Under the pieces are notes generated by a model. It was not told where the DNA came from. It saw only the letters and a list, made by a program, of their open reading frames with translations, and ran no database searches. Below, piece after piece: positions 17,299 to 60,150 of a DNA stretch of 64,000 bases. The stretch is from Hemileia vastatrix (Eukaryota; Basidiomycota; Pucciniomycetes; Pucciniales; Zaghouaniaceae). Location of the stretch: NCBI GenBank assembly GCA_030280995.1, contig JASXTE010000002.1:23566183-23630182 (forward strand). Direction: 5' to 3'. A program made the translations under genes and the position numbers. Each line of letters starts with the position of its first letter. The first letter of the stretch is position 1.

Positions 17299-17324
17299 AA
17301 AAAAAAAACAATAAAAAAAAAATG

Positions 17325-23638: not shown

Positions 23639-23676
<38 letters not shown>

Positions 23677-24199: not shown

Positions 24200-24200
24200 T

Positions 24201-28857: not shown

Positions 28858-28876
28858 AAGTCAGCTCATGATTTTT

Positions 28877-33326: not shown

Positions 33327-33329
33327 ATA

Positions 33330-33370
33330 CACCACAGAAAAAATGGGGGGGTATTGCTAGCAATACCCCT
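33330..33370 (+). repeat. Left terminal inverted repeat of the giant element
   Basis: CACCACAG, six A, T, seven G, then the 14-bp palindrome TATTGCTAGCAATA and CCCCT. It can form a hairpin by itself (GGGG...CCCC stem). Confidence 0.9.
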
Positions 33371-33380
33371 CATTTAAAAA

Positions 33381-33422
33381 TGTTGGGAAGTGGTTGGAAA
33401 GCTGTTGGAAGGCTGTTGGGAG
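33381..33422 (+). repeat. Left subterminal repeats
   Basis: Four copies of a GTTGGRA/GTTGGGA motif within 42 bases just inside the left terminal repeat. CACTA-type elements usually carry short subterminal repeats as transposase binding sites. Confidence 0.45.
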
Positions 33423-34223
33423 TTCATTGTGAAACCAGATTTAAATTAATTGGACAAAGATTTGGTAATAAGTTAGACCTAGGTTCAACAGAAATCAATC
33501 ACAGGTTTCTTGGAGCTTGGTGATTACTTTGATTTTGAGCTGAGCACAGATTGAGAAAAGCTTGAACATATCACTTAACATATCATAATATTCACTTTCC
33601 CATCTTGTGGAAAGCAAAATTTGATATTCGTTCTAAGAATATCTACATATATTTTCTTGCCAAGTTGGTAACAGAAGGTTAAACTGTAGTATCTCAATTA
33701 TTACACTAGACTACATAGATATTTGATAAAACATACAATTCAAATCAATTTTAATATTATTGAGATCACCATAAGTGTCTGTCCAAAGACTTACAAAAAG
33801 TATGTTAGTATCAAGACATCGTTCTAGGTAGTAGTTTCAATTTGGATTTTGAGCTGACATCTAAAGCATTTTACAATTTGATAGAAACATAAATAAGTGT
33901 AATAAGAGTGAAATTATTCTATTTTGTGATTATAATGTAACAATAAAGCACATTTTTATTGAGAAAATTTTTCTTCCTCCCCAAACCAAAATTTACTCTA
34001 TAGGCTCAAGATTTATTTTTAAGCCATATTATTCATTTCAGTTATCATTGATTTGCTTCCAATATTTATTAAAAAGATAATAATAATACATGTGAAAGAA
34101 TATGAGCTTAGCATAGCATATGCTAAAAAGTTATTTTGTCGTTTTATTCAAAACTGATTATTCATTTTTTGCTTCAATTCATCTTTTAACAACCACTATC
34201 TTCAGATACTATTCTTACTTAAT
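33423..34223. other. Left non-coding region of the giant element
   Basis: About 800 bases, AT-rich, between the left end and the SNF2 gene; no gene seen. Promoter functions are likely but not resolvable by eye. Confidence 0.4.
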
Positions 34224-36652
34224 ATGTCAAGTCTCAGATGTGTTGGACAGTTCTCAATAACGATTGATCAAATTTATATGAATGTAATTTCAAGATTTCA
34301 AAACTCACCAACCCCCACGATTTTACAGTGAGGCCATTTGAATGTTCATATTTTTGGACTATTCGAAGAAAGAAAACCAACCCTTGTCGGTAATCTTTCT
34401 CAAGTGCAGAGTCAGCACATTGGACCACTATTGGGTGACATTGGGTCTGGATCTCACCATTTAAACCAAAGAAGTGCCTTGAATCCTATGAAGCCTTTCT
34501 ATTTTCATGCTTACTTGGTTCCAGCTTTTGGTAATCAGTATCAACTTTGGGGATGCCTCTTTTCTTCAAGTACACTAATCAGTCTTGCTAAAGAAGCATT
34601 TTCTTCTGCTCAAATCAATTTATGTCCGATCCTGAACTACGACTCCACTATCTTTTTTAATATCCCGCATGTAATTTTTGAAGGCTCTTTCCAAATATCT
34701 CAGAGTACTCAAGATTGGAAAGCTGATCAACTTATCCGAGGAATCAAAACAGTTCTCAAAAAAAATCAACTTCAAGCAATAAATTTTATGATTGAAAATG
34801 AAAGAATGTTAAAGGAAAAGTTGGATATCATGTGGAGGCACCAGGACAACCATTGGCTTAGAACTGGATTCAATGACTATAAAGATCAGTTTCCTAACAA
34901 TCAATTAACCCCTGAAGGAAATGGGTCAATACTTGCTGATGATATGGGTTTGGGAAAGACGCTTTCAACTCTTTCTCTTATAAGTGCAACTCAAAGTGAA
35001 GCAAGACAATTCCAGGTATCGGAAAATCAAGAAGGTATTAATCAGAGTTCAGCCACACTGATTATATGTCCCCTGGCAACACTATCAAATTGGATCAATG
35101 AAATAAGTGTGCACTTTGAAGATAATGCGCTTCCTTTCAAGGTTCTTTATGGGAAGGATTGTCAAAATACTAACGTCAATTAGCTACAGGACACTGCTAT
35201 TGTTTTAATGACCTATGAAACAGCTAGCCCAACAATGTCAAAAAATCAAAGCCAAAAAAAGATACCGGTGACTCAAAAGCTCTTTTGGTATAGAGTTGTT
35301 TTAGATGAAGCTCAGTTAGTGCCCATTTCTATATCTAAAACTTAAAACTTAATTTTTATAATCAATTTTTATAAATATTCTTTTAGTTACATTAAAAATC
35401 CTTACTCGCAGAGGGCTCAAACAATATTTGACTTGGAATCCCAACACCTACTATGCTTGACTGGAACTCCACTTCAGAACAGGCCCACTGACCTTCAAAG
35501 TCTCATATTTTTTCTTAGAATCGAAAAGTGGCAAGAAGACTGGTTATGGAAGAATTTCCTTTTTCCAGGTTTGCAAAAAGGAAAGGCTAATTCTATTAAA
35601 TCAATCAATCACTTAATGAAAGTCATAAGCCTACGTAGAACAAAGGATGCAATTTTGTCTCTTCCAAAAAAGATTCAAAGGGGGATATCGGTTCAATTAG
35701 CAGATCCATGGAGGTCTAAACTTGATGTACTTCAAGAAGGATTCACTGAGCGATATGGGCCCTCCAGAAGCACTGACATCCCTTGGGACTCATCTGAGTT
35801 TCTAAGAGAGCTGATGATTTTAAGAAAATTCTGCAACCATCCAATCTACAAAAATCTGGATGAAACTCCAACTTTTGATTTCACCTGGCAGCATTCCGCA
35901 AAGATTTGTCATCTTATAGGCCACTTAAAAAACTTTTTGTCTGGTGAAAGGGGTATAAATTTTCCAAAAGCTGTTATATTCTCCAACTTTGCAGACTTTT
36001 TGCAGATGTAAGTGATTCTATAATGAATTGTTTTACAAAATTTTGTTGGCTTATTAAAAACAATTTTCTAATATTTCAAAATAGAATAAAAATGGCTTTA
36101 GATGACCACAATATTAGGTATACCCAGCTTACGGGTGAACTCAGCAAGACAAAGCGAGACAAAAATATGCATGAATTCCATTTTAATAAAAATTGACAAG
36201 TTTTGGTTGGAACAATTCAGGCTGCAGGAGTGGGTATAGATCTCAGGTGTGCTCAAGATGTATATATAATGGTGAGCTCAATGTCTTTTATTTCATATTA
36301 AGAACAAAAATATTAAATTTTTTATATGTTCAATGTTGAAATAGGAGCCAAATTGGAATCCAGCAGTTGAGCAGCAGGCTGTTGATCTGCTGTATAGAAT
36401 GGGGCAGCAAAATGAAGTAAATGTTTTGAATTATTTTGTACAAGGAAGTATAGAATTCAGCATGTATAAGATTCAAAGGAAAAAAATGGAGCTAACAATG
36501 TAAGCCAAATTTCATTTCTATAAATTTTAATGATAATAGTAATCATTAAAATTATGTTTTTGTTTTCAAGGCTAAGTGTCCCAAACAGTGGAAATGAGGA
36601 GTATGAGTGTGCAAACCTATTATTAAGGGAGTTTGTCAATCACTCACATTAG
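34224..36652 (+). pseudogene. SNF2-family (Rad5/HLTF-like) DNA-dependent ATPase, three in-frame stops
   Basis: SNF2 ATPases translocate on DNA to remodel nucleosomes or nucleoprotein. Five exons are separated by introns 35315-35386, 36008-36084, 36272-36344 and 36500-36570, all 71-77 bp GT-AG and phase-consistent. Motifs in order: Walker A in ILADDMGLGKTLSTLSLI (about 34930); DEAH formed exactly across intron 1; LTGTPLQNRPTDLQSL (35458); ISLRRTKDAILSLPKK; LMILRKFCNHP; then the second lobe with QAAGVGIDL and EPNWNPAVEQQAVDLLYRMG, where the usual Arg finger context DRxxRxGQ has become DLLYRMGQ. No RING finger was found. Stops at 34329 (TGA), 35181 (TAG) and 36194 (TGA) interrupt an otherwise full-length frame of about 710 codons. 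Its end overlaps the end of the convergent gene by 17 bp. Confidence 0.8.
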
Positions 36653-37757: not shown

Positions 37758-38832
37758 AAAGAATTAGATTAAGAAAGTGTTCAATTAAATTAAACAAAGA
37801 GGAAGGATAAATTGTTGAGCTCCAAAACTTTATGATCAAAGTTGATTTAAGGAGAAATATCACAAAAATTAAGAATAAGAAATATTTCAACTTTATGGCA
37901 TTATAATATGCATAAATTATATTTTTATATGCAATTTGAACTCAAAAGGAATGGTATAAAATGAAGAGAATGATTATGTGATAAAAGAAGACTCATTTGA
38001 GAAATGGATTTTTTTTCTTTTCAAAAAATTCTTCCACAAAAATAATTTGATAAATGTGAGGCTATGTTCATTTTTTGATTACCAAAAAATTATTTTTGGT
38101 CCAATATGATAGTAATACATATTTGATTGAATAATTTTTGTTCAACCTGAATAAATAGACTAGAGTGTCACTTCATCACATTTATGTATGAAAATTTATA
38201 CAAGGTTTCAGCTTTTTTGTAATGCTTTAAGGTTTACACTTTTGACGCATCTATTATTTGAGTATTATTGATTTTTTCTTTATGGAAAATTCTACCTAGT
38301 ACAGACCAATTTTCAAAGTGAAAGAAATATGTTTGTGATTGTTTTTTACAAAATATTAACCTTATTTTTGGGTTTAACTTTGATTTTTGGGGTAATTTTT
38401 TAAATAATTATGTTAAAAATATGGATTACTTTTCTTATAGTCCATAACTAAGAATTTTTATCAAAATCAAATAATTATAGGGTAGTTAGATATAACTCAG
38501 AAGGCATTTGATAGAAAAATAATAAAGATGCTTGTGCGTACAATAGAATTTTTTCTATGATAGAAAATATTCTGATAAACATGCATGCATTGTTTTACAA
38601 ATGCAGAGAGTATACAGAATACAAATAAAGTAGACTGCATAACTTTCAATTAATATATAAATTATCTGATTAAAAATTAAACATTTAAACTTAAATAATT
38701 TCAACACATATTCCATCATATTCTTTTGATAAAAAAATGTAGCTTATATTAGCTAGTGCCTTTCAAAAAAAGGAGTACCTTCAATCGGTAACTTCCAATA
38801 GCTAACTTATTCCTACAATTATCACAATTACA
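37758..38832. other. Divergent intergenic region in the giant element
   Basis: About 1.1 kb of AT-rich DNA between the start of the minus-strand 350-residue gene and the start of the transposase gene; probably a two-way promoter region. No gene or repeat seen. Confidence 0.4.
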
Positions 38833-41800
38833 ATGCCTCCATTTTTTCATATATGTCAATGTCAAGATCTTGGATGTGTCAATAGAAAGTATCAAACTTC
38901 TTCTGGGTCCTTTGAAGTTGGTATGGCTTTCAAAAGCTCTAATTCTTACGCAAAACATCAAGAGGAAAGAAATAGGAAGGCCCAGATGGTAATTTCTTCC
39001 AACAATCCACTTAACATTGGAAGTTCCCGCTCCACAGAAACAGTAAGCTGTATATCTATAGTTCAATGTGAGAATTAAAGTCTTTATGATGTTTCAATGA
39101 TTTATTACATAGGGGCAGTTGCTATTGGGGGCAGAATTATCTTCAACAGTCTCTAGAAACTCAAATCTTGGGGAACGGTATAGTTAAATAATTATGTGGC
39201 AGGCAGCAAAGCTTTCTCTGATTCATCATTTGAGCAAAGAAGGTTGTACTCAATTTTTGGATGAAGAAATTAAGAAGCTCAAACTTCTAGGTGATAGTGG
39301 AATACTGGATTCTGATAGCATTGTCTGCCTGATCCCATGCTCGATAGATACAGTTTTTAGTCTATTAAAGCTCAATCAATCATTTTTCACTAAAACATGC
39401 TTTCCTAAATGCTTTGCTCTTTATGAGTATAACTCTGAATCTCAACCATCTATACTATGTTGCAATCAACCGTTTCTTTCATCATCAAAGCGCTATTTAA
39501 AAACTTTTGGAGCAGGACAAATTGAAGTTAAATGTGATGAAAGGCTGTATTTGATGGAGGAACATCAAGAACATGTAAAATACTTATCTCTTAAAAAATT
39601 TCATCACCATTATTTTATCGACTGGCTTAAGGAAAAGATCAAACTGTTCAAATTTGAGCTTCTGATTGAGAAGAAAACCCCTGTGGCAGAACATGTAGAG
39701 TGTGATTTGATGAAGGATGTTTGTGATGGTTCAATTTGGGAAAACTTTCCCATTACCACTTCTGCTCTGGATAGCAATGATGATGAATATACGATAAATT
39801 CAGGCAAATTAATGTTTACTTTATATGTCGACTGGTTTAGGCCTGGTGGCAATAGGATTGGAGGTCATCAGAAGTCTGTAGGAAATATTATGATGGTGTG
39901 TATGAACCTACCTCAAGAAGATAGATACAAAATGGAAAATCTTTTTTTGTATGCTATTATACCTGGACCAACAGAACCCACAAGTGAACAGCTTAATCAC
40001 CTTCTAAAACCACTTGTTAATGATCTACAAACTCTATGGGATGGTATATTGATTGAAAAGACACATCTTTATTCACGAGGCCGGAAAGTAAGAGTTGCAT
40101 TGTTCTCTTTGATAGGTGACATTCCTGCAATATGAAAATTGGCTGGCTTTTCGAGTCACTCTGCAAAAATGTTCTTCTCTTTCTGTAATATCTCTAAAGA
40201 TGAAATTAGTGAAAAGAATGTAGGAAATTTTTCCTTACGGAATCATGAGGATCATATGTGCTGGGAAACAAAGTGGAAAAATTCTAAGTCACATTGGGAG
40301 CGTGTATCAATTGTTCAGAATCATGGGGTACGATGGAGTGAGCTGAATAACCTTGAATATTGGCGTCCAACTGAATATTGCTCAATTGATGTTATGCATT
40401 CACATATGCTTGGCAACCTAAAAGATCACAGTCTAAGCTATTTTCAAATCCAAAATGCAGCAAAAGATCTAGAAAGAAATCTGGAAAAGGATAAAAATTG
40501 GCATTTAAGAGAAGAAGATGACGATTTCTTTTCTGATACTTCACTGCAAAAACATTCGAAAAAACGTAGAAGTAGCTTAAGCACCACAAATAATGATGAT
40601 GATGATGATACAGGGCACACGAGACAGCACAAGCGGCAAAGATGTATGAGTTCAAGACAGTCATCAAGTCATCATGGACTAGATAATGAAGGATTGGGAA
40701 CAAATCGATCAAGAAGCCAGAGTAGGTCATCCAGCTCCAAATTTATTCCTCCATATAGCGATTTGGCCTCAATACAGTCTCACAGCAGTGACAGTAGGAA
40801 TTCATAGTATAACTTAAGGCAAAGGAGCATTAGCATATCACAGAGTGAAGGATCTCACTCATCAAATGAGACAGCTAGAGATGAAGAAAATAAAAGGAAA
40901 GGTAAGGAGAAAGAAAATGAAGGTGGTAGTAATCCACAAATCACGGTAGAAGAGCTAAAGGTTGTATGGAAGATGATTGATCAAGTAAGAAGACCTTCCT
41001 GGCTAACACAAGTTCCAAAATCAGTAGGATCTAAAAAGGCAGGATCCCTCAAGGCAGCAGAATGGCACATGCTATATACTCTCTACTTCCCTTTGTCACT
41101 TATACCCCTTTGGTTTGAAAAATTTAAAGAATCTGAATCTTCAGCTTCCTCAGCTGAAAAACCAAGAGAATAGTATCTTCTCAAGTCACTTGTAACATTA
41201 TGCTCAATCACCAATTTTTTGACATTAAAAAATATACAGACTAATGAGCTTAAAGATCTAGATCAATTTCTGTTAGAGTATCGTGAGTGCCTGGAAGAGG
41301 GTTGGAAGAATATTAATGCAAAGCCAAATCTGCATATCACTCAACATTATCCTGAAATGATAAAGCGTCTTGGTCCACCATCAGGTACAGCTACTTGGTC
41401 TGGAGAGCAGGTGAATCATATATTATCTGAAAATCCAAACAATCACCATCCACGTATTTAATGTTTGTAAGCAATGATTTAAAAACTCAGCTGTGCTAAT
41501 TTATTAATATTTACCACAGGAGAGATACCGCTAACAATGCTCAAACATTAATATCAGAAGTATAGGGTATTAGATCTTGGTGAAGCTGAAGATAATGATC
41601 AATGTGAGACTAAAAAAATCAATATTGATCTCGATAAACAAAACAAATGGATCCATCTAAGTATGGCATTATTTACTAAATGGGTAAGGGCACAAATGAG
41701 AAAAGAAACTTCAAGACAGGATTTGACACCATCGGAGAAAAGTGAGGATTGGGTAGTTAAAAATGTAGCAAGCATATTGATACATGGAAAGAGGTTTACT

Positions 41801-42223
41801 AGTTACCATCGACACATTACTAATTCAACAATTGAATTCTACTATGGAAAAGATAGCCAGTTTGGGCAAATTGATGATCTTTTCAGGTCAAAGGAAGAGA
41901 ATGATCAAATATATTTAATAGTAAGTCCTTTCAAAGAGCTCCGTCCAGAAGAAACATCAAAGGATCCCTATGAGCTTTTCCCACAAGTGCATTGTCGGTT
42001 AGTAAGAGTAGCCAAAGTAACTCAAATTGTGATTAAGAAAGATGCAATAATTGGACATGCAGCTACTGTCGAGCACAAAAAAGGAATATTTGGAATCAAA
42101 GACGAGGTTTTCACTGCCATTGGACTGCAGACTGTAGTGAGTGAAAAAATTAATCAAATTTATTTTCTGTTGACTAACATCTTTGTGTTAATTTGGGATT
42201 CGGGAAATTTGTTGGATTGGTGA
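38833..42223 (+). pseudogene. Plavaka-type (CACTA superfamily) transposase, multiple in-frame stops
   Basis: Exon 1 (38833-39042) encodes an N-terminal zinc-finger-like unit (ICQCQDLGCVNRKY with a later His). Intron 39043-39112 (70 bp) joins in phase 0 to a long exon to 41461; a further intron of about 60 bp ends at CACAG (41519) and the last exon reaches 42223. The core matches basidiomycete Plavaka transposases: LYVDWFRPGGNRIGGHQKS with the first catalytic Asp, MVCMNLPQEDRYKMENLF, IIPGPTEPTSEQLNHLLKPL, VRVALFSLIGDIPAI, KLAGFSSHS and SFCNISKDE, then a Ser-rich hydrophilic insert and a C-terminal region with HITQHYPEMIKRLGPPSG. One frame is kept throughout, with stops at about 39185 (TAA), 40133 (TGA), 40805 (TAG), 41171 (TAG) and 41549 (TAA). 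This would be the enzyme that moved the whole element; this copy is inactive. Confidence 0.85.
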
Positions 42224-42640: not shown

Positions 42641-44317
42641 ATGGATGATAATTTTGAAGGGATGTCTGTTGACCCAACTGATTCTGATTTTTTTCCACCT
42701 CAACATACTAATACTGGAAATACTCCACCACCACCCGCTGCTGATCCACCTCCAGATGAATCTCAATCTGTACCGCCTAATCCTAACCCAACAACTAATC
42801 CCAATCCAGGCCAAGAGTCTCATTCAGAACCGAGAAATTTTAATCCAAATCATCCTTCTGCTCCTGAAAGTGATGATCAGCAAGCTGATCAGCTAGGAAG
42901 AGATTGGGCTAGTGAAGTATTGAGGGAATTTTTCGGAGACCAATCATCATCTGCTCAGCCTAACCAAGGAGCAAGCACAAGTGGAGCTGGTAAGTCAAAT
43001 TTGTAGTGTATTCTTTTATTGAAAAATAACCAATTTAATTAACTTATTTGAATTTTTAGTGAATCCCTCAATCATTATGGGTATCAGTGATTACCACAGA
43101 CTCAATTCAGCAGAGTCTCATGAACGAGAACGGGGGTTAAGGGCTGTAAGAGGCTTAGTTAGAAGGAATGATGTTCCCAGGAGCTTGGACAGTCTAAATA
43201 GAAATATTTACCACTTTCTGAAGTATTGTCTTGGGGGACCAACACAAATATCAAAATATCCTGCAAGCCCAACACCTTTGGAGATTTAAAATTGGAAAGC
43301 TTGGAGCCAATTCAAACTAAAAACCATTCAAACTGTCCTAACCCAAGTCCAATCTTCTAACTGTGCCAATTCTGCAGCTGATCGACAATTTCTGATAACC
43401 AATTCTATAGTCTTCTTGCGATCCAAAATTCGACTACCCAAATTTTTTCCAGCACCTGAGCCTCGAGGACTAAAAGGAGGAGCACTGATCCAACTTTCTG
43501 TCAAACAAAACTTAGAGCGTGAATTGCAAGAAAAAGGTTTTCGGAAATTCGCTTTGATTGGACTTGCCGTGATTTTTTGGAATCAACTTGGAATCAAGTC
43601 ACGGGAAGCATAGTATGCAACCACTGTACCAGGTGGCTCACCACCTTGAATACAATCGATCAGTCAAAGCTTCAGTTCACTCAATGTGTTATGGAGAAAT
43701 GGGTAGTTAATAAGGGGAAGGAGATGATAAGGTTGTTTGGGCAAGAAGAGGAAAGGGTAGCAAGAGAAAAGATTGAAAAGAGGGCAAGGGCACAAGTAAA
43801 ACGTTATCGGACCAAGGTAAGTTTTTTATTTTACTTTGCTTTTTGTTATTATGAAGCTGATTTAGTTGGAATTCAGATTGCTAGTGCACGCTACAAGTTA
43901 GCAAGAGATCTCTGCAGTGATGTGCCAGGTTTTGTTGTGCTTTTTCATGATACTAGGTGCATCTCTGATATCGAGGAAGGCCCAGCACCAGCCCCAACTG
44001 CACCTATCCGAGCTATTCCTGGATTGCGAAATCCTGAACTCAATGATTTGTTTAAAAAAATGGATAAGATGACAAAGGACTTAGCCCATACACCAGCTCA
44101 AAGAAAATCAGCATTAAAAAAATATTCACGGTCATCAGAAAGGACAGTTGCACAAAATGGTATATTCAATGTTCCCAAATACCTCCCCAAAAATTGCTAT
44201 TCAGCAAAATTTTTGCAAGGATTATCTGTGAATGAACGTGAGTCACTTGGGGTTGGAGCTGATATTGATCTGCTAAAGATTCGGGAATCAATTAATAGAG
44301 CATCAACATCATCATAA
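42641..44317 (+). pseudogene. Unknown element protein, Pro/Asn-rich N-terminus
   Basis: Exon 1 (42641-42989) encodes an acidic then Pro/Asn-rich disordered region (TTNPNPGQESHSEP). Intron 42990-43059 joins in phase to a helical region with ERGLRAVRGLVRRNDVPRSL. A TAA at about 43287 and a +1 frame change near 43550 interrupt the frame, after which it continues through VTGSIVCNHCTRW and a basic coiled region (EERVAREKIEKRARAQVKRY). A 60-bp intron (43817-43876) keeps phase into the C-terminal part with YKLARDLCSDVPGFVVLFHD and ends at 44317. I recognise no enzyme. The CxxC and basic helix suggest nucleic-acid binding, weakly. Same strand and close spacing as the transposase suggest linked expression. 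Confidence 0.5.
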
Positions 44318-44529: not shown

Positions 44530-46475
44530 CCATATTAATTTCAATCGAATTTAATGTTGACCAATACATAGTGAATACACGTTATGCCACTTATACTTGC
44601 CAGGCATAGCTACCATTAAATATGCCAGTATCAAAAATTAATTTCAATCGAAATTAATGAGCATGATAATCATGAATTTTTGGAGTCAACTGCTTATTTT
44701 TATGCATGGTGCCTTGCCAACATTAATTTCGATCGAAATTACTTTTGATACTGGCATATTGCATTGTGTCTATTCCTGGAAAGTGTAAGTGGCATAGTGT
44801 GTATTCATTACGTATTGGTCAACATTAATTTCAATAGAATTTAATATTGACATTTGCATATTGAACCCAAACCAGCAAACAACCCAAAAAATTCTTCATA
44901 AAACCGCTCATTAATTTCGATCAAAATTAGTGTTGACCATATACATATTGAATGGTAGTTATATCTGGTGTGTGTAAGTTGTAAAGCTTGTGTTCAATGT
45001 TTATTGGTCAACATTAATTTTGATTGAAATTAATATTAATGTGTAAATGATATATACATGCTCAATATGCATTGTAATGTGTTTACTTAAGAGTAGAGGG
45101 CCCTACTTTTCATCTTACAGAAAAATGCTTGGTGGCATGTCAAATTCAATTTTTATTAAAATTAATGTTGACATGTTACCATGCATAACAGTAAGCAACT
45201 GACTGCATAAATTGATGATAATCATGAACCTTAATTTCGATCGAAATTAATGTTGCCAAGTGCAGATTGAAAAAAAGCTATGCCACTTACACTAGCCAGG
45301 CATATTTACTATTTATTATGTATTGGTCAACATTAATTTTTATAGAAATTAATATGGATATGTAAATTTTATATTTAACCTCAACATGTATAGTAAATTT
45401 CAATACTTAAAAATACTTGCTGTCCTTTACATGTCATGCCAAAAAGCATTATATCACTTCAACATTAATTTTGATCAAAATTAATGTTGGCATGCCATTA
45501 TGCATTGAAACAACTAACTGACTGAAAAAGTTCATCATCAAAATGCTCATTAATTTTGATCAAAATTAATGTTGACCAATACATATTGAATATAAGTAAT
45601 CTCCGCTTGCTCAGACCAGATATAACTACCATTCAATATGTATATGGTCAACCTTAATTTCAATCAAAATTAATGGGCAATTTTATGAAGAATCTTTTGG
45701 GTTGTTTGCTGGCTTGGGTTCAATATGCAAATGTCAATATTAAATTTGATCGAAATTAATGTTGACCAATACATAATGAATACACACTATGCCACTTACA
45801 CTTTCCAGGAATAGCTACATGCAATATGCCAGTATCAAAAGTAATTTCGATCGAAATTAATGTTGGCAAGGCACCATGCATAAAAATAAGCAGTTGACTC
45901 CAGAAATTCATGATTATCATGCTCATTAATTTCGATTGAAATTAATTTTTGATACTGGCATATTTAATGGTAGCTATGCCTGGCAAGTGTAAGTGGCATA
46001 GCATGTATTCATTATGTATTAGTCAACATTAATTTTGATCGAACTTAATATGGACATGGACTATGCATAAAATTCCTATAAGTATAGGTAAGCTAAGCAG
46101 TTAGCTTAACTGGTTTGATCAAGTACACCATATAAAAATTGATGTTTTAATGCCTTGGTTAATTTCGATTGAAATTAATTTTAAGCCATGCATGTTGAAT
46201 TTTATCTATGTCTGTGTAGTCCATGTGAAATGGCTTGTATACAATATGCAGGGGTCTACATTAATTTCGATCGAAATTATGAGGTCCATTGCCTCATAAA
46301 TTTGGTGGCTTCTGTCAGGGTTTCATGCATGGTGCCATATGATACTTGTTGATTCCTATCAAAATTAATTTCAACACAAATATATTGAATACAAACCATG
46401 GCACTTACAGTACTTGGTCATAGCTAAAATTCAATATTCCAGTCTCAAAATTAATTTCGATAGAAATTAGTCAGG
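44530..46475. repeat. Array of about 20 palindromes, core TTAATTTCGATCGAAATTAA
   Basis: Copies or close variants start near 44533, 44636, 44723, 44823, 44909, 45011, 45149, 45230, 45330, 45462, 45549, 45653, 45738, 45841, 45924, 46026, 46160, 46260, 46360 (weak) and 46450, mostly 80-130 bp apart. Exact cores are at about 44723, 45230, 45841 and 46260; others substitute within the palindrome, several symmetrically (TTTTGATCAAAA). The spacers are related to each other, and the part 44530-46040 is itself one imperfect palindrome centred near 45290 (for example TGCCAGTATCAAAA near 44620 and its complement near 45950). TGTTGACCAATACATA-type blocks recur beside the cores. No coding region. It looks like an array of binding sites for a dimeric protein, or a replication or centromere-like platform. 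Confidence 0.85.
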
Positions 46476-47503: not shown

Positions 47504-49931
47504 ATGTCTAGTATACAAAATCCTACACCTCCACTTTGTATGTATATCATGTTCCTCTCTCTTAATTTATATATTTCACTTATGTTCTATATCTTTTTTT
47601 TTCAAAAAATTGATTTTCCAGCACCCGAATGTGTTTCATCCCACTCTCTGATTGATACTTGCTTTGAAGCTTTTGAGCTTGCACCATGTCTGCCACATGG
47701 CATGGCACCTAACCCTCCTGTACTTAGCAATGAGAGGCAGGAAATAACGAGAGTTCAGTATCGCAATTTACTTGAATTGGCTAGAGATAAAACAGAAGAA
47801 CTTGTCAAGATCCTTAACAATAATCCTTCTCCTTCATATTTATCTAACCCTTGTAATGACTTACTCCAATATGTGAAAAGCCTTGAAAAATGTATGTTCT
47901 TCACCTTTTTTGTCTCCTTTTAAATTAGTAGATAAGATTATTAATATTTTTTTTTCTTCATATATATTTGTAGCTTACGAGGAGGGTATGATTCCTCCTG
48001 ATGAAATCATTGTCATTAGTAATGATGATGAGACAGATGAACCATCAGATTTAACTCATGCTTCAACTTCTAAGGAAAATCTTGAAACACCTGTTATCCG
48101 CTCCAAGAAAAAGAGATTATCCCAAGGCTCCTCTTTTGTTCGACATATTAAACCGGCTTCTGCTAATGAATTTTCCGATGTATCAAATAATAAATCTCAA
48201 AAAAAAAGCAAAGGCTTTAATAATGAGTATATTCTTGTTTCCTTTTTTTTATTGTTATTCTTTTATCTTTAAAATTCAATCATATATCTCTTTTATTGCT
48301 TACATATTGTACTTTTTATCTTTCTTTTGATATTTTGTACCAGAAACTCACCTGCTGTAGATTGTTCCATCCATAAACGCCCTCTCCCTGATGAAGATGA
48401 TGAAAAGAGCAATGAAAATAGCCATGATGAACTGTCAGAATATGAAGCTATGCTTGTTCATCAAAAAAAGCAAAATTTAAAATCTTCTTCAAGACATGAC
48501 AATATGTTTGATAAAGATGATGATTCAAACAGCTCATCACCAAATACCTTCATTTCTAAGAAGCAATACCCATCACCTCCTCAACTACCTACTTTGACCA
48601 CTTTGAAAGCTTCTCTACCAATGAAATCAACTCCAATCAAGATATCAAAAAAACCTCTAACTTATTCACCCTCAGTTCTAAAAGACTCTGATTTGCAGGA
48701 GGAATTCTGTAAAATTCATAATTTTTATTAAGGTAGAATCAGCACGGCAAAGGTCCTCAGGTCGTGGTTGGAAATTGTTACTCTCCTCACATTACGCTCT
48801 TCTACTTCTTCCCAAGAACCCATTTTAAATATTCCAATGTTTACATTTCATTGGGAAAAATCTTATGGAGAAGATTGGCTTTCAAAACTTACTGAGTTAT
48901 GTAAGTTACCATAATTTTTAGTCTTGACTTTTGCTCTTTTACTTATTTTTTTTTCCTTTTGTAGCAAATATTTTTTTAGAGATTGATAGCTCACAGCTAT
49001 GGGTACTAGATAATATTGATTTAAAAAAAATGGAATATTTATGTGTTCCTGATGGTTTAAATACTGAAATTCTTTCCTCAACAAAGAAAACAGATCACCC
49101 TGAATCCAATCTTATCCAAATGCTCATGAGATTAATGATGCCAAGTGACCACTGCCGTTCTTCATGGGTATCTCTTATATCATCTTCACTTTATCTGACC
49201 GCACATGAATTCAGCCAGCTTCCATCACATCAAAACATCAACTCATATTGTCAAATTGAACGTCGTCTTCAGCTTCTAGCTCATCTTTCAAATCTGTAGA
49301 GTCCGATTCCTGATGGCTTAGAAGTTGGTCCCACTGCACTTCAAACCCGTGATATATCAATTTCAACTCTTCTTCAAATCAGAAATATTATCATTGATAT
49401 GATTATGTCAATTAACATTCTTAAATTAAAATATTGTGCTTCAACAATATCAAGTGGAAAGACTAGCAAAGCTCAACAATTAAGTCAGAAAAATGAAAAT
49501 ACTGAACTGAATATAATGAGACAGAATTAAAAGGCTGCACTAAACAAGATAAATTCTGAATACTCCCACCACCAATATCAATCTTTCACATTCTATATAA
49601 TTGATGGTGTCCGTGGTTTATTTCTGAGCTCTCAAGATCATAGATTGGCTTCAGCAGCTGATTGCTTGGAGGTAATATCAGAAATTAAGTTTCTTAATTT
49701 ACATGAAAAAAAAATCATTTTATGGAAGTAATAATTTGGAAAAATTTAAATAACTATATTTTAACATTAATAAAACCTTTTATAGGCAAGTGTGATCCAT
49801 TTCCTTTGAAATTTGATACCCCAAGTCCTCGGAGAATCGCTAGGGCTATTTCTGCAGATTTTCTTAATCACTGGAGCTCCATTCAGCCAGTATCACCTTT
49901 TTTTGCTAAACATAGCCTTTCAATAAATTAA
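47504..49931 (+). pseudogene. Unknown large element protein with a SUMO-interaction-like motif
   Basis: About seven exons with short introns (for example 47542-47622, one ending before SYEEGMIPP at about 47972, one ending at about 48341, 48901-48964 and one after 49671) join into a frame of about 650-700 codons. The N-terminal half is acidic and Ser-rich and contains DEIIVISNDDETDEP, a hydrophobic run followed by acids as in SUMO-interacting motifs, and basic patches (RSKKKRLSQ) that could be nuclear signals. The C-terminal half is helical with YGEDWLSKL, QLWVLDNIDLKKMEYL, SDHCRSSWVSLISSSL, YIIDGVRGLFLSSQDHRLAS and a last exon with PSPRRIARAISADFLNHW. Stops occur at 48729 (TAA), 49297 (TAG) and about 49528 (TAA) in an otherwise kept frame. 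I do not recognise the family. Confidence 0.5.
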
Positions 49932-50728: not shown

Positions 50729-51935
50729 TTAAATATCTTGATTTTTTAGATTTGTCTTAACATTAGATAAATAATACTTTGCTGAATTTATTTCTTCCTC
50801 TATTAAGTCATCTCTTTTCAAAAAAACTCTCAAAGCACTAATCAAATATTTATACCTATCTTTTTCTTCTTTCATTTCCAAGTACTCTGAAATATCAATA
50901 TCAAAAACATTAAGCTTTTCTATAGCATGAAAAAGTCTAGTGCTTATTTGAATAGAAGAACCTATCCTAGTGAAGCCAGGAATTTCGTGACATCTTGAGG
51001 TAAAATGCCTTAGTTGATTGGCAGGCCATAATGTCACTTTTATTCCATTAGTTGCTTCAAAGTTTATTTTACTTCAAATTTCGGGAAACATAAGTTCTCC
51101 ACCTTTTTGTCGTGGTTGGGTCTTATCATACTTCATATGAATGGTATTTTTTTCTGTATCTTTAAGAAAAAATATTCCTAAAGTATACTCACTTGCATCC
51201 TTATCGAGATGAACCTCATTGGAGAACCCATTACCATTCGCTCCAGATGTCCAAGTTAAATTACTAGCAAATGGTACACCCTCTTCTTCACTAGAAACTT
51301 TTGAAAATCCAGGAATACCAAGTTTTGCACAAAGATTAGTTGCCTCATTGTACTTTACATATGATATTTTTTTAAAAAAATATTCAAAGTACATTGCAAT
51401 CCTCTTCATTTGTTTTTTATATTCATCCGTTTGTACAATATCATCAGTGTATTCATCTGCAAGGAAAAGCATTCAAAAATTCAGTATTTAAATTAAAAAA
51501 AGTGATACTTACTAATATATAAAGATTTCTTCCTATCTAAAATAAAGCCACCACCAAACATTTTTCCGAAACCACCAGCTCTTTGATGATAACCATTATT
51601 TTTAATTTCATGTTTGCAGTAAGAAAGATCCTTAATGCATTGCACCGTAGCTTCTAACATATCTAGTTCTTTGAGCTCACGAATTTCAAAAGTCTGCACA
51701 AGAACATTAGGTATTAAGACACCTTTTAGTTTATAAATACTAAATCCAGGAAAAAAATTGTAATAATTATTGCAATCTGTCATATTATTTGCATAAGATC
51801 GTGCATAGAAATGTGGCTTCTTCCCATTTGTATCCATTCCAAGAGCGTTTACAAGTTTCATTCCAGTAGCAATGTCTTTGGCCCACCTATTGTTAGAGTT
51901 CTTCCCTGGCCGTTTTTTTTTTCAAATTGTTACTC
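50729..51935 (-). pseudogene. TET/JBP-like 2OG-Fe(II) dioxygenase, one internal stop
   Basis: The family oxidises 5-methylpyrimidines in DNA, using Fe(II) and 2-oxoglutarate. Exon 1 runs from about 51920 to 51513 with SNNRWAKDIATGMKLVNALG, GFSIYKLKGVLIPN and HQRAGGFGKMFGG; the intron 51512-51457 (56 bp, GTAAGT...TTGCAG) joins in phase to exon 2. The HxD iron site is in SNEVHLDKDASEYTLGIFF (about 51205), and the distal His in NQLRHFTSRCHEIPGF (about 51005). A TGA at 51074-51076 separates the two within one frame. At the 5' end a run of ten A (51914-51923) puts the upstream ATG (about 51937) out of frame with the domain, so the N-terminus is uncertain. Apart from these the domain is full-length, about 370 residues. 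Its sequence differs clearly from the copy at 1.7-2.7 kb. Confidence 0.7.
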
Positions 51936-52185: not shown

Positions 52186-52532
52186 TTATCCTGTATGCAT
52201 TCAGCAAGTACGAGATTTGGCTCTACACTTAATATTAATAATATAATTAAAGTATAACTCCAATACACTAGTAATATTAAAAAATTTACAGAATTATCAT
52301 ATCCACATATATAAAATGAAAAATCTTTCTCTGACCAATATATTCACTTAGAAAGTTATACTTCAATAAGTTATTAATTTTTAAATTGTAGCATTTTCCT
52401 GTATGCTTTCAGCAAGTACGAGACTTTGAAACAACTTAAAAATCAATAAATTAAAGGTAAAGTACAAACAATCTAATTATTATTATTATGAAAAGCAAAA
52501 CATTATCCTCTATGCTTTCAGCAAGTATGAGA
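52186..52532. repeat. Three 30-bp direct repeats upstream of the TET-like gene
   Basis: CCTGTATGCTTTCAGCAAGT followed by ACGAGA, at 52186-52215, 52395-52423 and 52503-52532, nearly identical in otherwise diverged AT-rich DNA. They lie 0.3-0.6 kb upstream of the minus-strand gene and could be regulatory or transposase-binding sites. Confidence 0.7.
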
Positions 52533-53687
52533 TGATGTTTTACTTTTCATATTAATAATATAATGGTTGAGAAAGTATTAAAGAAATATAGTAAAATGAT
52601 AAGCAAAACATGAACTTACATGTCTATAAAATCTTCTTCCATTTGTAGCTTATTGATCAAAATTAATTATAAAGTTTATTTTATAATCACTGTTTTAAAA
52701 AATAAATGGTTAGATAAATAAATTGAACATTTTTGATAAGGAATAAAGAAAAGTAAATTGACAAACAAATAAAAAAACTTTAAGTTAACTGAAAAAGAAT
52801 TTTTTTTATAATGAATCAAAAGGGTACAGTAAAAGATACCATAAAAATAAATTCAGAATTAGAATCATTAGATTAACTTGTCAAAAGTGTAGAAAAGAGT
52901 AACAAACCAAAATGATATGAAATGCAATAGCAAGAAAAATTTGCTTATCTGTAATCAGATAAGGTCAAGAAAATAGTACCAATAACTCAAAATGATAAAG
53001 CAAAAATATGATGGATAATTTTTGAAAAAGGTAAGTGAGAAAGAGAAAGGAAAAATAAATTGGGTGGAAAAAAGATGTAGATATCATGAATTTTCACTGA
53101 TCTCATTTTCAAAAAAATGCAGCTCTCCAAGTCATATGATAAACTTCATCTAAATTCCAAGAATGATGTTGCCAAGGCACTGTACACAGCATGATCATTT
53201 TTTCCTATGCATATACTAATTTCAGCTAGAATTTACTTGGCTGCATGTTGTACAGATGAACATTTGTGGAACGCTGAATTTCACATCTAAAAAAAATTGA
53301 CGCCACATAATTCTAGCTACCATGTTTCACGTAGCTAAAAAACATACACTCATCACATTTAAATTTACATTGCGTCAAAATTAATTCATTTTTGAATTTT
53401 TTTAAAGGGAAGTATAATGTGCACCACCTATTTCTAAAATATGAACCTCCCCACCATATTAAATTGGGAGACTTATAATTATGCAATTATTTTGCCGTGA
53501 CCTTTTTCCTGATCTTACTTGGTTCAAAATATTGAAACATGACCAATGTTGCTGAAAGAAACATTTGATTTTGTTTCTATGTGTAACAATGGAAGGCTGT
53601 TTCTTACCGGCTGAAGAGTGTTGTATATTTTATTTGAACACATTTTTATTTTTTTATGTATTTTATTTAAAAAATTTACTTTTTATT
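52533..53687. other. AT-rich spacer
   Basis: No gene seen; poly-A/T runs and unstructured sequence. Confidence 0.4.
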
Positions 53688-54285
53688 GCAGCCAGATTTA
53701 TACTGGCTGCCTTTTAGAAACCTTAATTTATGACCCAAGCCTTTGAAATTGGCTTGGGTCCCTTACATTTCAATTTAGTACTTCCAGCCAGGTTTCCCCT
53801 GGCTGGAAGTGTCTCTTTCTAGCAATCAAAGTCACTAAAAGCGACTTTGATTGCTTGCTGTAACGTTTGCCACCCTCCCAGCTAATTTACTAGGCTGGGA
53901 GGTGGCCAAAATTGTGTGCAACGCGCGTTGCTGCTGCAAGTAACGTGCATTACTTGCAGCAGCAATGCGCGTTGCATGTGCTGCATGCAGTGCATTGCAC
54001 AGCCAGTTTTTTTCTGGCTGTGCAATGCACACAGAGAAACCAAAGTCCCTGCAAGGGACTTTGGTCTCTAAAATGGAAGCGACTTTCCCTACCAGGTGCA
54101 ATATGGTGGGAAAGTGAGAGATAAGTTAGACTGAAGTTGTTTGAAAGCAACTTCAGTCTTAAAAACCTTAAAAATCATAAAAAAAATGAGAAATCTAGAA
54201 AAAAAAATTAAAATTAAAATGTGAGTATAAGAAAAAAATAAGTGCTAGTGATACCAAAAATCCAAGCCGCTTTCATTTGGCTTGG
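53688..54285. repeat. String of 11 adjacent perfect or near-perfect hairpins
   Basis: Consecutive inverted repeats: 53688-53710 (GCAGCCAG), 53732-53760 (GACCCAAGCC), 53780-53810 (ACTTCCAGCCAGG), 53821-53855 (AGCAATCAAAGTC), 53867-53909 (CCTCCCAGC), 53917-53976 (27-bp stem with CGCGCGTTGCTGCTGCAAGT, loop CGTGCA, one G/T mismatch), 53990-54030 (17-bp stem GTGCATTGCACAGCCAG, T7 loop), 54034-54068 (ACCAAAGTCCCT, loop GCA), 54082-54115 (ACTTTCCC), 54128-54159 (AGACTGAAGTTG) and 54262-54285 (CCAAGCC). Stems are mostly different from one another, loops are 3-10 nt, and GC content is far above the surroundings. Some stems share cores (CAGCCAG in 1, 3 and 7; CCAAGCC in 2 and 11; AAAGTC in 4 and 8). 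Chance cannot produce this; a structured RNA, small-RNA precursors or a series of short foldback insertions are possible. Confidence 0.85.
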
Positions 54286-57200
54286 TTATTTAATAATTAT
54301 TTTTTAATACATTAAATTTAAAATTCAAACACCATAAAATATATGAAATTTTTTTATATGAATATTATAAATTTAATCTACCTCTTTCTCATAATTATAT
54401 TTATAATTTTGTTTTTTTAATTTTTGACATTTAAGTTTATTTTTTGGAAATACAAAATTAAATTTTCAACTAAATTTTTTAGTAAGGTAAAATAAATTAT
54501 AAATTTGACATTTTGTAATTGAATAATGAAAAAAAATTTTAATTTATTTAAAAAATATTTTTGTTAGAAGAATACCAATATTTTAAGGGTAGAAATTTGG
54601 TGCAAATTGTAAGTAAAAAAAATTATATTTTTTTTTGTGAGGGGTTATTTCTATTTTTAAAAATATTTTTCAAAAACATTCATTAAATACTGAATTAAAT
54701 TACTTTGTAACTCATATTTTTTGTAAAATAATTAAAAATGAAATAATAATATTGTTATATTTGATATAAAATTTGAATTGGTAATATTAATGTCTCTTTA
54801 AGTAAATTTGAAAATCATTTAAAAAGATTATGTTGATAAGTACTTTATTTTTGATATAAAATGGTTATATATATATCTTATATATATTTCTTGAGTGTTA
54901 TTTTTATATACATTCAATAAAATTTGTAATATACAATGCCATTTAATCATTAATTATTGTTCAACTTAGTTATAACAACTTCATATTTAATACCAGCCAC
55001 TAGTATTTACTTTTTAATTTAAAACTCCAATATAATATGAGAGTATCCTTATTTTGTCTGTATGTAATTAACAACAATAACAGACCATAAATGAGTGGGT
55101 AATTAATTACAATAAATAGTTGAAGAATAAACTATAAGAAATGATAAGTTTATCAAAAAGATTACATTAAAAAAATATACTTTTGAAATTTTTTTGATAT
55201 AATTTGGGTAGTTAAATGAAAATTTATATTATCAGACATCAAAATGGAAAAAATCTAAAAGTGGTGTTTATATAATAAGCCTCATATAAAAAAAGGATAA
55301 AAAATCTACTATGTAACTAAATTATTAAATATTAAGGTATTATTAAAATTATTGAAAAACTTATTTTACAGTTATAAAGAAATCTAAATGTGAAAATTAT
55401 GGTGGGATAATAGTAAGACTATGTGGAAACACTTTAATTTATACATACTTTCAACTATGTTCAGATAAAAAAATTGGTAAAATTGTATAATAACATCTAG
55501 TTAATAGCGATGCAATTTTATTTAGATCAAGAATAATTTTTTCTGAGGAAAAACTAATTAAATTGAGATATGGCCATCTCCTTTCAAGAGATAGAATAAT
55601 AATAAAAATTTAAAAAATTATAATAATAATTCTTAATCACCATTTTTGAAAAGTCTCTAGTAACATTCATTATAATATATCATTCATTTATTACATTATA
55701 TGGAGTTTCATCTTGAAGTAGTGATGTGCAGCTTTGAACTCATGTTATGAAAAACAAAAAAGTTAAAAAATATATAGTTATACTAATGAAGAAGCCAAAA
55801 ATAAAAATACTATTATAAATTAATAAAATAAAACTACATAAATTTTATTCTGCTCTACTGATGGAAGGGTACTATGTATGAATTTCCACATGTTAAATCT
55901 AAACCTGTTTTAAGGCTAGTTTACAGGTAGAGCTATTAAGTTTCCTTAAATTCTAGAAATAACTTATGCATTTTAAAAATTATTTTTTTCTTGTTTTCTT
56001 TCCAAAGTTGTTAGAGTTGGTTAATTAATACTGTTATCTTAATTGTAAGATATATAATTTTTTTTGAATACATGATTTATTGTTTCAAAAATTATATTAT
56101 AAAGTTAAATCATTTATTTCATTTTCTAAAGCTTCATTGTCAAAGACACAACTCCATTTTCTATTACTTAACAAATATATAAAATGTGATAGTAAAATTT
56201 TAGGAATTTTCTTTTTGAGAGGGTCAAACTATATTGTGAAGATTTTTATCTAGAAATTCTTGTACTCTAAAACCAAATAATTTTCTCCCTTAAGTAAGCC
56301 ATTTCAAAAATATGAGAATATAAACAAGAATATTGACTTATCTTATTTTTATTTTCTTTACTGAAATTTTTAGTTCAATCCCTTTTTTTATATGACATTA
56401 GTATAAAACCATGGTTAAATGCTACTATATTATTAATTTTTATTATATATATATATATATATGAAATATTTAGAAGGTCATCCTTTTTTATTTACTTGAA
56501 TAAATGGCTCAATTATAATACCCAACACTTATTAATGTTTCCCAAACTCAATAACAAATTTCTCATATGAAATATTAGCTTCTAATATAAGAAGTTTATC
56601 TTTAGATGATATTCAACATGTGATTTTACTTTTTAGATTCAGCTAAAATTAAACAAAAGGAGAAATCATGCATATGTGTATAAATGGTAACCATATGTTA
56701 CTTAGAGGATTGTGAAATTCACTCATCAGAATGGTTTAAATATTAAAATAAATTGAGGTCATTATTTTCTAGTATTTGAAACTAATTAGGAAATTATTTT
56801 AAAAATATATTTTAATGTGTATCATGTTTAAAAAGTTGGAAATATGATTTTTGAAAATTGTGAGTTTCTTATGAGATACCAAGCTTTAGTTTACATTGTT
56901 TCAAGTAGAATAGAATTTTAGTATTAGAAATTGAAAGCAATGTACCATTATCAGATTTTAACTGTGTTCTACTTATAGAATGATTACATAACATTAAACA
57001 TTATTTAAATCAAAAAGGTTTAAAAGATATTTAGAATTTTACAAAATTTCACCATTTATTAATCTTTGATTTGAAAACCAACTATGATGTACACTCACTA
57101 GAAATAAGCAATCCCAATTTTAACATAATTTATCAATCCAAAAATAATGAGTCAATTAACATAAAGATATATATTATTTCAAAACCAAATCTCTATATTT

Positions 57201-58173
57201 AAAATATGATGCTTTAATGAAAAATTAATACAAAACTTTAATGCAATGAACTCTCTTAAAAAATTCAAAAATAGAATATCAAAACAAGTAATTTCTGTAA
57301 AAAAACTACTAACTATTGTAGATAAAGCATAAAAATAAGTCATATTTTTAAAAAAAATGATCTAACAATATTTATTTTTGTTAAAAAAATCAAAACATTG
57401 TTAAGTTTGCTTGTTATAATAATGTTAAAATCCACTAAACATTATCTAAAGGTGGTAAAATATGTTAAAAATATGTTGAATTTTGTGAGCCAAAAATCAA
57501 CAATTTTTTATCATTTCATGTTGTGCTATGACTTTATTCCACCCTTTTTATCTGATTCTTCCAGTATTACTTTGCTATGATCACTAGTTTTCAAGTTAAA
57601 ATTTACAAATGTTCATTATACTTGATAATATGAAAAATAACTCAAACTTTTATACCTACAAAATAAGATTTTGTAACTCCTTCTTTCAATCAATATTTGA
57701 AGAAATTTTTAGTTTATTTGGGTAATGATTTTAAGAATAACAAAAAATTTGAAATTCACAAGGAATTATTTCCAGAGACTATAATTATTTACTTATGTAA
57801 TGCATGAGCTACTTATCAATGATGTTAAACATCAGAAAAGTAAGTTATAGTTATAAATCTACAGATTATACTGCTTCTGGTATATATATCTTCAATAAAT
57901 CTTTTAAACTTATCTTAACCTACATACCACACAATAGAAAATCATTATATTAAAAAAGAAAAAAGTTCTATGATAATATCATAAAGAATGATAACCATGG
58001 ATTGATATTCCATAAAAATGGTTAATAAAATTTTAAGATAATCTAAATCAGTATTCTTTCATCAAAATATATCCTTTTTGTCTTTGTAATTTATTCCAAA
58101 CAAATTTTTTGAGAGTTGAATCTATATATCTAATGCCAAAACCACTTTAAGTTCCCTCTTAGACTTTTTAAGA

Positions 58174-58211
<38 letters not shown>

Positions 58212-59300
58212 TATCAAAAATTGAAATAAAGAATAAAAACATAATTTTATTTACCTTTAATTATTTAAATATAGAGTATTTTCAGAATGCATTGTGGTTA
58301 CTTGTGAAGGTTAGAAGATTTGAAGTTGGATTTATGAGTTTTTAGAAGGGCAAATATTGTAAAATTCTTTCATAAATATTTATTTCATAGTTTCAAATGT
58401 TGAAATCTACAAACTAATGGGATTTAAAATTATATTGAGATTTAAAATCTTTTTTCTACTCAAGTAAAATAATATAAAATGATGATATCAAAATTGAAAT
58501 TAAGTTTAAACTTTTGATATGCTCTATCTTCAATTTTATTGATAGTGCATCAAAAATTTAATAATATTTTTTTCCTTCATCACTTTTTACATAAAAGATA
58601 GTTTTTTTCATTTTATGCATTAAAGATTGCTTATATAAAGTTAACATCTATGTCAACTGTTTATGACTATTAATCTATATAATAAATTTTTTAGAAGAAA
58701 CATCAGTATATACTGACTTTGTAATTATTTAATTTAAAATAGTTTACAGGTAGATAATGAAGGGTGATTTCATTTTTGAATATGAATTATAGAAGTCTTA
58801 TTTTTTCAATTTTAATTCTTTTTGAGCTCAAATGTATCCACCACAACTTATGTAAGAATAAAAATTATTTTTATTGAAATTTACATGAGAAAGTATGCCT
58901 ATTATTCAAAATCAAACTTTCTCTAATGGTGTTTTTCAATCATTATTTCCATTCATAACAATAAAAAACATTTCAATTTGCTGATATTTTAGTTTTTGAT
59001 ATCCCCAAGTTTATATCTCAGGTGTACTATTCACAAAATTATTAAAAATATAATTTTTGAAATACATGATAAACTTGAAAGTGAGGGGGCATTAAATTTT
59101 CAAAAATGAATTCTAAATTCAGGATGGATAGTATTTTTCCTATTTTCACAAATGAACAATTTTTTGTTTCAATTAATCCAGAAAGAAAATTTTGTTGTAA
59201 GCATATTATATTATATTTATTTTGATTTTAAATACTATATTTTCAAGATTTGTGTTTAATATTTCCTGTGAAAGTTAATGTTAATGTGAATTTTAAGTAA
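54286..59300. other. Gene-less, extremely AT-rich 5-kb arm of the giant element
   Basis: No coding region above background, no recognisable RNA gene, no terminal repeats. AT microsatellites occur at 56444-56462 and 58180-58207. It may hold decayed genes of the element. Confidence 0.5.
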
Positions 59301-59879
59301 GCTTGAAGAAATTTAATCAATAGGCATATTGGATATTTAAAATAATATTTTGCTCCAATCTTGAATCATCCTGGGCTAAATAATATCCGGAATAAGGTTT
59401 TTGTGGGTCAATTTGGATTTAAGTAGGACTAAGTGAGGTTTAATAAAGGACAGATAAAAGGCTAAATTCATTACTAGTGACTTTTTTCTCAAAATAGTTA
59501 TAAAATATGTATCATTCTGGAATCAAGCTTCAATAAAGTTGAATTGAAACAGAGATAATTTCTAGCAGCACATCACCATATTTACAAAGGTGTAAAATAC
59601 CTCAAATATTACTCATAATATAGGAATGCAAGGAATCTACAAAATTCACATTTGAAACGAGGATTTATATTTTGAATTTGAAATTGAGAAATGGAATATT
59701 ATTTTCCAATTTAAATATCTATTAGTAATTTTACCAAAAGTTTTCAGTAATCAGATTGAATTTTGATGGTATTTTGTTGTAGATTAATCATTTTGATGAG
59801 CCATTTACTCAAAATTACTGGTTTTGGTTCTAATATTCCATGTGAAATTCATTACGAATCTTTTTGAAAGTGAATAGTT

Positions 59880-60020
59880 GACATATTGGATATGCAAAAG
59901 CTTATGTTAGATCAAAGTGAGATCAAAGGGAGTTCAACTCATGATCAAATTAGGATTTTTCAAGATCAAACGGTGATCAATGTAGGTTCATCTTGAGCTC
60001 AATTTGTGACAAATCTCTGA
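59880..60020. repeat. Right subterminal repeats (GATCAAA motif)
   Basis: Five GATCAA(A/T) motifs within about 70 bases (AGATCAAAGTGAGATCAAAG, then CATGATCAAATT, CAAGATCAAACG, GTGATCAATG), 130-230 bp from the right end. They differ from the left subterminal GTTGGRA repeats, as is common in CACTA-like elements. Confidence 0.5.
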
Positions 60021-60106
60021 CCAAATGTAAGGCCAAAAAATTTCCTACATGGTGATGATGTGTGCATAATTCAGGCATAGATTTGTGGCTCAACGGAGTT
60101 CAAGCA

Positions 60107-60147
60107 AGGGGTATTGCTAGCAATACCCCCCCATTTTTTCTGTGGTG
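60107..60147 (-). repeat. Right terminal inverted repeat of the giant element
   Basis: Reverse complement identical to the left repeat over all 41 bases, including the lengths of the A and G homopolymers, which suggests recent insertion or strong constraint. Confidence 0.9.
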
Positions 60148-60150
60148 ATA

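Follow-up and report, generated by a model that had tools for sequence, protein, structure and literature searches.

A 26.8-kb, six-gene EnSpm/CACTA-type transposon of the rust fungus Hemileia vastatrix with TET-like and SNF2-family genes and many copies in its genome

Within a stretch of 64,000 nucleotides from the rust fungus Hemileia vastatrix (contig JASXTE010000002.1; the whole stretch is hereafter called the window), positions 33330-60147 constitute a single DNA transposon of 26,818 bp, flanked by ATA on both sides. We consider it very probable that this element represents a family of about 27 kb and six genes, of the rust EnSpm/CACTA type, which moves as a unit by cut and paste, carries a cargo presumed to counter silencing, and decays at CpG sites. 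DDE transposases, of which the element encodes one, act by a cut-and-paste mechanism. As judged from the assembled copies, a unit with fixed ends and 3-bp duplications has moved whole many times, and sometimes recently, since three of its copies, although set in unrelated flanks, show 99.84-99.89% identity across their 27 kb when gaps are ignored.

Copies of the element and its movement as a unit

The genome searched was the window's own assembly (747,610,610 bases in 791 contigs), using a terminus pattern that tolerated changes in run length and, as a control, the same pattern reversed. The pattern gave 988 + 980 matches against 0 + 0 for the control, which excludes a chance origin of the termini. 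The spacing of pairs was analyzed among the matches listed, namely the first 100 of the 1,968 ends, which lie on contig C2. These ends form 40 adjacent convergent pairs, 38 of them (76 of the 100 ends) less than 60 kb apart, whereas the remaining 24 have no partner or a distant one. Spacings of 26.5-30 kb were found in 31 of the 38 pairs, with 22 at 26.5-27.5 kb, whereas only one of 40 divergent neighbours, taken as the spacing control, fell at 26.5-30 kb. Inverted terminus pairs 15-35 kb apart, which the earlier note on this DNA had suggested looking for, are thus present. Since none of the 38 convergent pairs is closer than 10 kb, we rejected the possibility that the termini exist only as short miniature inverted-repeat transposable elements (MITEs). 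Extrapolation from the 76% of paired ends, if C2 is typical, suggests about 750 complete elements, which would total some 20 Mb and make up 2.7% of the assembly. A genome search with an exon of the TET-like gene returned 1,720 first-look candidates, and all 40 that were scored cover the full exon at 97-100% identity. The terminus was absent from viral contigs, which says little for a fungus.

Six copies near 27 kb were taken from C2 by size and read from end to end. They measure 26,892-27,230 bp, are collinear with the window copy in the same gene order (95.7-97.3% identity in the main blocks), and are 95.9-99.9% identical to one another (gaps left out). The changes between copies are local: one of the six is without about 1.2 kb and about 2 kb of the window copy, including most of a cluster of hairpins, and has about 3.6 kb extra. 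These alignments bear on the idea that several transposons have piled up, nested, between two ends that match by chance. The arms of the element do differ strongly in composition, and the hairpin cluster and an array of palindromes resemble separate modules; nevertheless, six other full copies hold these modules in one order and follow the same logic of 3-bp duplication. The collinearity of the full copies largely refutes such a pile, which we regard as very improbable.

The duplications and flanks of the copies address a second alternative, that a 27-kb block was spread by segmental duplication rather than by transposition. The near-identity of the copies across 27 kb would agree with it. However, each of the seven full copies, the window copy included, has its own matching 3-bp duplication, and the 15 ungapped comparisons of 100-bp flanks among the six full copies show agreement at no more than 39 of 100 positions. 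In eleven further end pairs (26.9-49 kb), which are those with both ends among the loci returned, the duplications matched in 11 of 11 cases against 10 of 110 non-partner combinations, bringing the total to 18 of the 18 end pairs examined. For the copies tested, the duplications, the unrelated flanks and the related empty sites of the window copy described below refute segmental duplication, and we assign it only the slightest probability. That the element moved as one unit, which the earlier note had deduced from a single copy, is supported by the collinear full copies together with these duplications, and the alignment of full copies that it had recommended revealed a shared gene order, with internal losses and an insertion in one copy.

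The insertion site of the window copy provides independent detail. With the flanks joined and one ATA removed, a continuous long interspersed nuclear element (LINE) is restored, and tblastx aligns this LINE collinearly, through the junction, with another one in the window. The joined flanks have 17 genome matches, two of which are the window's own flanks; 12 of the 17 span the junction at 68-83% identity, extending 30 bases or more on both sides, and a thirteenth reaches past it by 21 bases. By alignment, the matches that run through the junction are related empty sites. Because the joined flanks are collinear with another LINE and genome matches cross the junction, the LINE was split by the insertion, as previously claimed. 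The termini at 33330 and 60147 and the ATA duplication had likewise been placed exactly, and the 41-bp inverted repeat was confirmed.

The ends read CACCACAG..CTGTGGTG, i.e. they are CAC..GTG termini, and in the window copy they form a perfect 41-bp inverted repeat, including the runs A6 and G7, with the 22-bp palindrome GGGGTATTGCTAGCAATACCCC inside each terminus. Identical ends had been presented as a property of the element; this is correct for the window copy but not for the family, in which the two ends of most copies differ slightly. Among 30 pattern-matching ends, all 14 on the SNF2 side read AAAATTT, whereas A6T stands in 14 of the 16 on the opposite side, and about 36 of the 38 pairs among the matches listed have one end of each type (counted by eye). 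The window copy, with A6T at both ends, is therefore the exception among copies.

Genes, coding state and CpG decay

Gene models were derived from stop-to-stop frames and splice signals, built on one fetched copy in which they are open; they stop short of the final SNF2 exons and, in some genes, of the outermost exons. Six genes were modelled, in agreement with the prior count of a transposase plus at least five others. The transposase matches Pfam Transposase_21 (8.2e-10, on one open reading frame, ORF) and has six protein relatives at 26-37% identity; five of these bear Transposase_21/tnp2, and the three with an organism name come from mushrooms. In the alignment of the seven proteins, the D in GDIPA, the D in IDVMH and the MH are invariant. 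Of the C(2)C and H(3-4)H motifs that go with the tnp2-type transposases of the rust EnSpm group of Kojima 2025, C-x2-C is present in a young copy, one C being lost in the window copy. The earlier designation as a Plavaka transposase calls for a proviso: the domain matched is Transposase_21/tnp2, but the CAC..GTG ends and 3-bp duplications agree with what Kojima 2025 classes as rust EnSpm rather than PlavakaA or PlavakaB.

Two cargo genes are recognisable. The spliced SNF2 protein (X at stops) matches the Pfam domains SNF2-rel_dom (4.5e-55) and Helicase_C (2e-14), and its best PDB match is RAD5 (3.7e-45). The TET-like protein matches Pfam 2OG-FeII_Oxy_6 (Tet-like) at 6.9e-22 when spliced (X at the stop) and at 1.9e-13 as a single exon, and its HxD motif is present as NEVHLDKD in the exon at 50732-51472. 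Pfam searches with each of the three other genes, ORFm, gene B and gene C, gave no match. ORFm has one protein match (P0007), 98% identical over 57% of it, from a contig of 1,098 bp with the source 'lgn'. The element or a near twin has thus been sequenced elsewhere, whether in this species or a different one.

This gene content also bears on whether the element could be a giant of another kind, namely a Starship, a Maverick/Polinton or an integrated virus, as its size and cargo might suggest. Starships are characterized by the tyrosine recombinase DUF3435, and Mavericks/Polintons by DNA polymerase B, integrase and capsid genes. Here, in contrast, we find a DDE transposase of the tnp2 type, CAC..GTG ends and 3-bp duplications. 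The Pfam scan, which covered 20 ORFs and five spliced proteins and left some short ORFs outside, detected no tyrosine recombinase, polymerase or capsid domain, and there was no DUF3435 and no DNA polymerase B, integrase or capsid match among the Pfam matches of the scanned ORFs. A viral reading thus finds no domain support among these ORFs, and membership in any of the three groups is extremely unlikely.

The window copy contains 13 in-frame stops spread over five of the six genes: three in the modelled part of SNF2, none in ORFm, five in the transposase, one in gene B, three in gene C and one in the TET-like gene. Given these stops and the frameshifts in its genes, the window copy is decayed and probably not autonomous. 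All six models are free of stops and frameshifts in two of the seven full copies, one of which is the source of the models. Repeat-induced point mutation (RIP) was not supported as the cause of the stops, as each of the 14 stretches tested gave a negative RIP composite index; RIP-like signatures have been reported as absent in rusts (PMC12210899). CpG decay was rejected as the sole cause: nine of the 13 stops are TAA or TAG, which a single CpG transition does not make.

CpG decay itself is pronounced. Taking as reference the sites at which three young copies agree, CpG transitions affect 83 of 478 sites (17.4%) in the window copy, against 52 of 3374 CpA-type and 60 of 4193 other C sites (1.4-1.5%), and the other three copies display the same excess. 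The array of the palindrome TTAATTTCGATCGAAATTAA, which comprises 20 units in all seven full copies with spacing conserved to within 1 bp, deviates from its motif by 39 substitutions, 27 at CpG and 12 elsewhere, with CpG transitions making up 21 of the 39. The three young copies have an observed/expected CpG ratio of 0.41-0.42, compared with 0.186 for 30 flanks, each 1.5 kb long (one-sided rank test on the windows of one young copy, p 0.003), and with 0.02 for the open ORF of a Ty3 element nearby. This is the pattern expected if the genome methylates CpG and the element family is partly spared or young, without telling which.

We propose a working mechanism. The transposase would cut at the CACCACAG ends, where the palindrome of either terminus would assist it. 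The SNF2 ATPase would open the element's chromatin while the TET-like enzyme would oxidise its methylcytosine, so that together they would allow the element's genes to evade silencing. Copy number would rise through ordinary host repair following excision, and older copies, such as the window copy, would lose genes by point mutation, fastest at CpG. In its strongest form, the proposal is that TET, SNF2 and the 20-unit CGATCG palindrome array constitute a self-encoded anti-silencing system that keeps the element's own CpGs unmethylated, which would have permitted about 750 complete copies and would help inflate the rust genome, while copies with dead genes become methylated and decay at CpG. 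We put this forward tentatively and think it somewhat likelier to fail than to hold.

Several observations weigh against the overall interpretation, the proposed mechanism included. In the counts of differences given above, transversions exceed transitions at non-CpG sites, so that part of these differences may be noise of the fast alignment. A CpG ratio of 0.42 is reached by four of the 30 flanks, and stretches of the window at 28001-30000 reach 0.57-0.66. The higher CpG content of the young copies could derive from recent arrival or codon needs rather than from TET action. A protein search with the TET-like protein yielded no match at E up to 0.001, and a crude 8-mer count found no subterminal repeats of the plant CACTA type (4 and 10 at the ends, against an interior mean of 25). 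Finally, a selection test set two old copies against one young copy: across the six genes dN/dS is 0.56 (p 8.5e-12), but it rises to 0.77 (p 0.008) once CpG-touching codons are excluded, with no single gene significant, so that selection on the cargo genes is weakly supported.

The faintness of the selection signal after this exclusion is one reason to ask whether the extra genes are chance passengers, with only the transposase and the ends mattering and TET and SNF2 useless to the element. In addition, one gene or more is broken in five of the seven full copies, which may have been moved in trans. On the other hand, the five extra genes are all open in both fully open copies (the models having been built on one), the whole set persists at one length in most paired copies among the matches listed, and TET genes are recurrent in many rust transposon families, as described in the main text of PMC12730594. 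We therefore regard mere passenger status as unlikely, though far less so than the alternatives above.

To our knowledge, large cargo-bearing transposons are mostly low in copy number, and against this background a 27-kb cargo transposon seemingly present in about 750 complete copies stands apart. Both recognisable cargo genes point at chromatin silencing. With hundreds of copies of many ages and public long reads, the effect of a transposon-borne TET gene on the methylation and mutation of its own family is directly addressable. The published reads have an N50 of 16,166 bp (PMC10652848), so a single read will not usually cover a whole element.

Further anatomy and surroundings

The positions of the modelled genes and other features are collected in Table 1.

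Table 1. Features of the element and its borders, in window coordinates.
Feature	Position	Strand	Remarks
Target site duplication ATA, left	33327..33329	.	Sequence
Left terminal inverted repeat, 41 bp	33330..33370	+	Sequence and genome pattern; 22-bp palindrome at 33348-33369
SNF2-family ATPase gene	34224..36652	+	Introns near 35315-35386, 36008-36084, 36272-36344, 36500-36570
ORFm, 2 exons, ~340 aa	36639..37757	-	Open in window copy
DDE transposase (tnp2, Plavaka-like)	38836..42223	+	Main exons 39113-41453 and 41520 onward; N-terminal exon a guess
Gene B, 3 exons	42641..44317	+	1 stop and two 1-nt losses in window copy
Palindrome TTAATTTCGATCGAAATTAA array, 20 units	44535..46470	.	Spacings ~85, 102 and 131 bp; between genes B and C
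Gene C, several exons	47703..49930	+	3 in-frame stops in window copy
TET/JBP-like 2OG-Fe(II) dioxygenase gene	50732..51860	-	1 stop and 1-nt loss in window copy
19-bp motif TTGCTGAAAGCATACAGGA, three copies, 0-1 mismatch	52189..52524	-	Upstream of TET gene
Cluster of 8 perfect hairpins, stems >=9 bp	53732..54159	.	
AT-rich right arm, ~21% GC	54300..60000	.	No gene recognised
Right terminal inverted repeat, 41 bp	60107..60147	-	Sequence
Target site duplication ATA, right	60148..60150	.	Sequence
3' part of the split LINE's ORF	60151..60869	-	LINE 3' tail left of 33330

In the palindrome array, adjacent spacing pairs often sum to about 188 bp, and the array may bind a protein of the element. The region 53601-54300 contains eight hairpins, against a mean of 0.05 and a maximum of 1 in 200 Markov shuffles; six of the seven copies have 8-11 hairpins there, the seventh being the copy without most of the cluster. 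The hairpins are mutually unrelated in sequence, and one stem reaches 34 and 62 bp in two fetched copies. The cluster might give rise to small RNAs or represent a fold-back insertion.

Elsewhere in the window, a 295-bp MITE-like element (31247-31541, with a TTT duplication) has ends resembling those of the giant element, with CAC, a G run and a palindrome around TTGCTAGCAA, and otherwise different sequence; a family related to the giant element may thus have short derivatives. A Ty3-type long terminal repeat (LTR) retrotransposon occupies 16150-25339, with LTRs 99.7% identical and an open frame of 2,062 aa. Its ORF has CpG at 0.02 of expectation, and the 1-kb block at 24001-25000 (leader and LTR) stands at 1.04. 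Overlapping tandem repeats at 27657-28527 have low-complexity frames and lie in a CpG-richer stretch. Inverted segments at 3449-5573 and 60844-62817, near the ends of the window, are 83-89% identical and apparently belong to another dispersed repeat.

Comparison with known elements

Among the papers listed by literature searches on giant cargo transposons of basidiomycetes and rusts, on SNF2 in transposons, and on CACTA, EnSpm or Plavaka elements of Hemileia, there was no account of this element. Starships (PMC12134995) are likewise giant, cargo-carrying and fungal, but they are described from Pezizomycotina and use a tyrosine recombinase, whereas the present element resides in a basidiomycete rust, encodes a DDE transposase and has a very high copy number. 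The giant repeats of Amoebidium, of up to 50 kb (PMC11244446), are also gene-bearing, linked to Plavaka and found in a methylating genome; they differ in having tandem gene clusters and many tyrosine recombinases, and the accessible part of that paper does not describe inverted termini.

Among enlarged CACTA elements, the soybean Tgmt* (20.5 kb, PMC2613891) shares the ATA duplication, and those of the red alga Chondrus (PMC6431247) reach 16-20 kb with 4-5 ORFs. Both are smaller, and no TET or SNF2 cargo is named for them in the portions of the two papers available; Tgmt* has subterminal repeats, in contrast to the window element, where the crude 8-mer count found none. The earlier note had called the element far larger than usual CACTA transposons. 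It is indeed bigger but not by a new order of magnitude, its size being a step beyond the elements of 16-20.5 kb already published. The Plavaka A and B elements of mushrooms (PMC12730594) have a Plavaka-type transposase, some with TET, but their termini are given as TGT..ACA or CATCA..TGATG, against CACCACAG..CTGTGGTG here, and the CATCA..TGATG ends of Plavaka B are not those of the window element.

The closest counterparts are the TET-carrying EnSpm families of Puccinia striiformis (Kojima 2025, PMC12730594), whose transposases are Plavaka-like and which have CAC..GTG ends and 3-bp duplications. In its main text, that study adds related families from other rust species, reports no rust Plavaka elements that carry TET, and notes that the function of transposon TET genes has not been experimentally validated. 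SNF2 and Hemileia each have 0 occurrences in that main text, while an SNF2 partner is present here. Common to both are the CAC..GTG ends, the 3-bp duplications, the Plavaka-like transposase, the TET/JBP-like gene and the Pucciniales host. Going by the main-text description, the traits that would be new are the size, the SNF2 partner, the palindrome array and the copy number; in its sequence characters, the window element fits the rust EnSpm/CACTA group of Kojima 2025.

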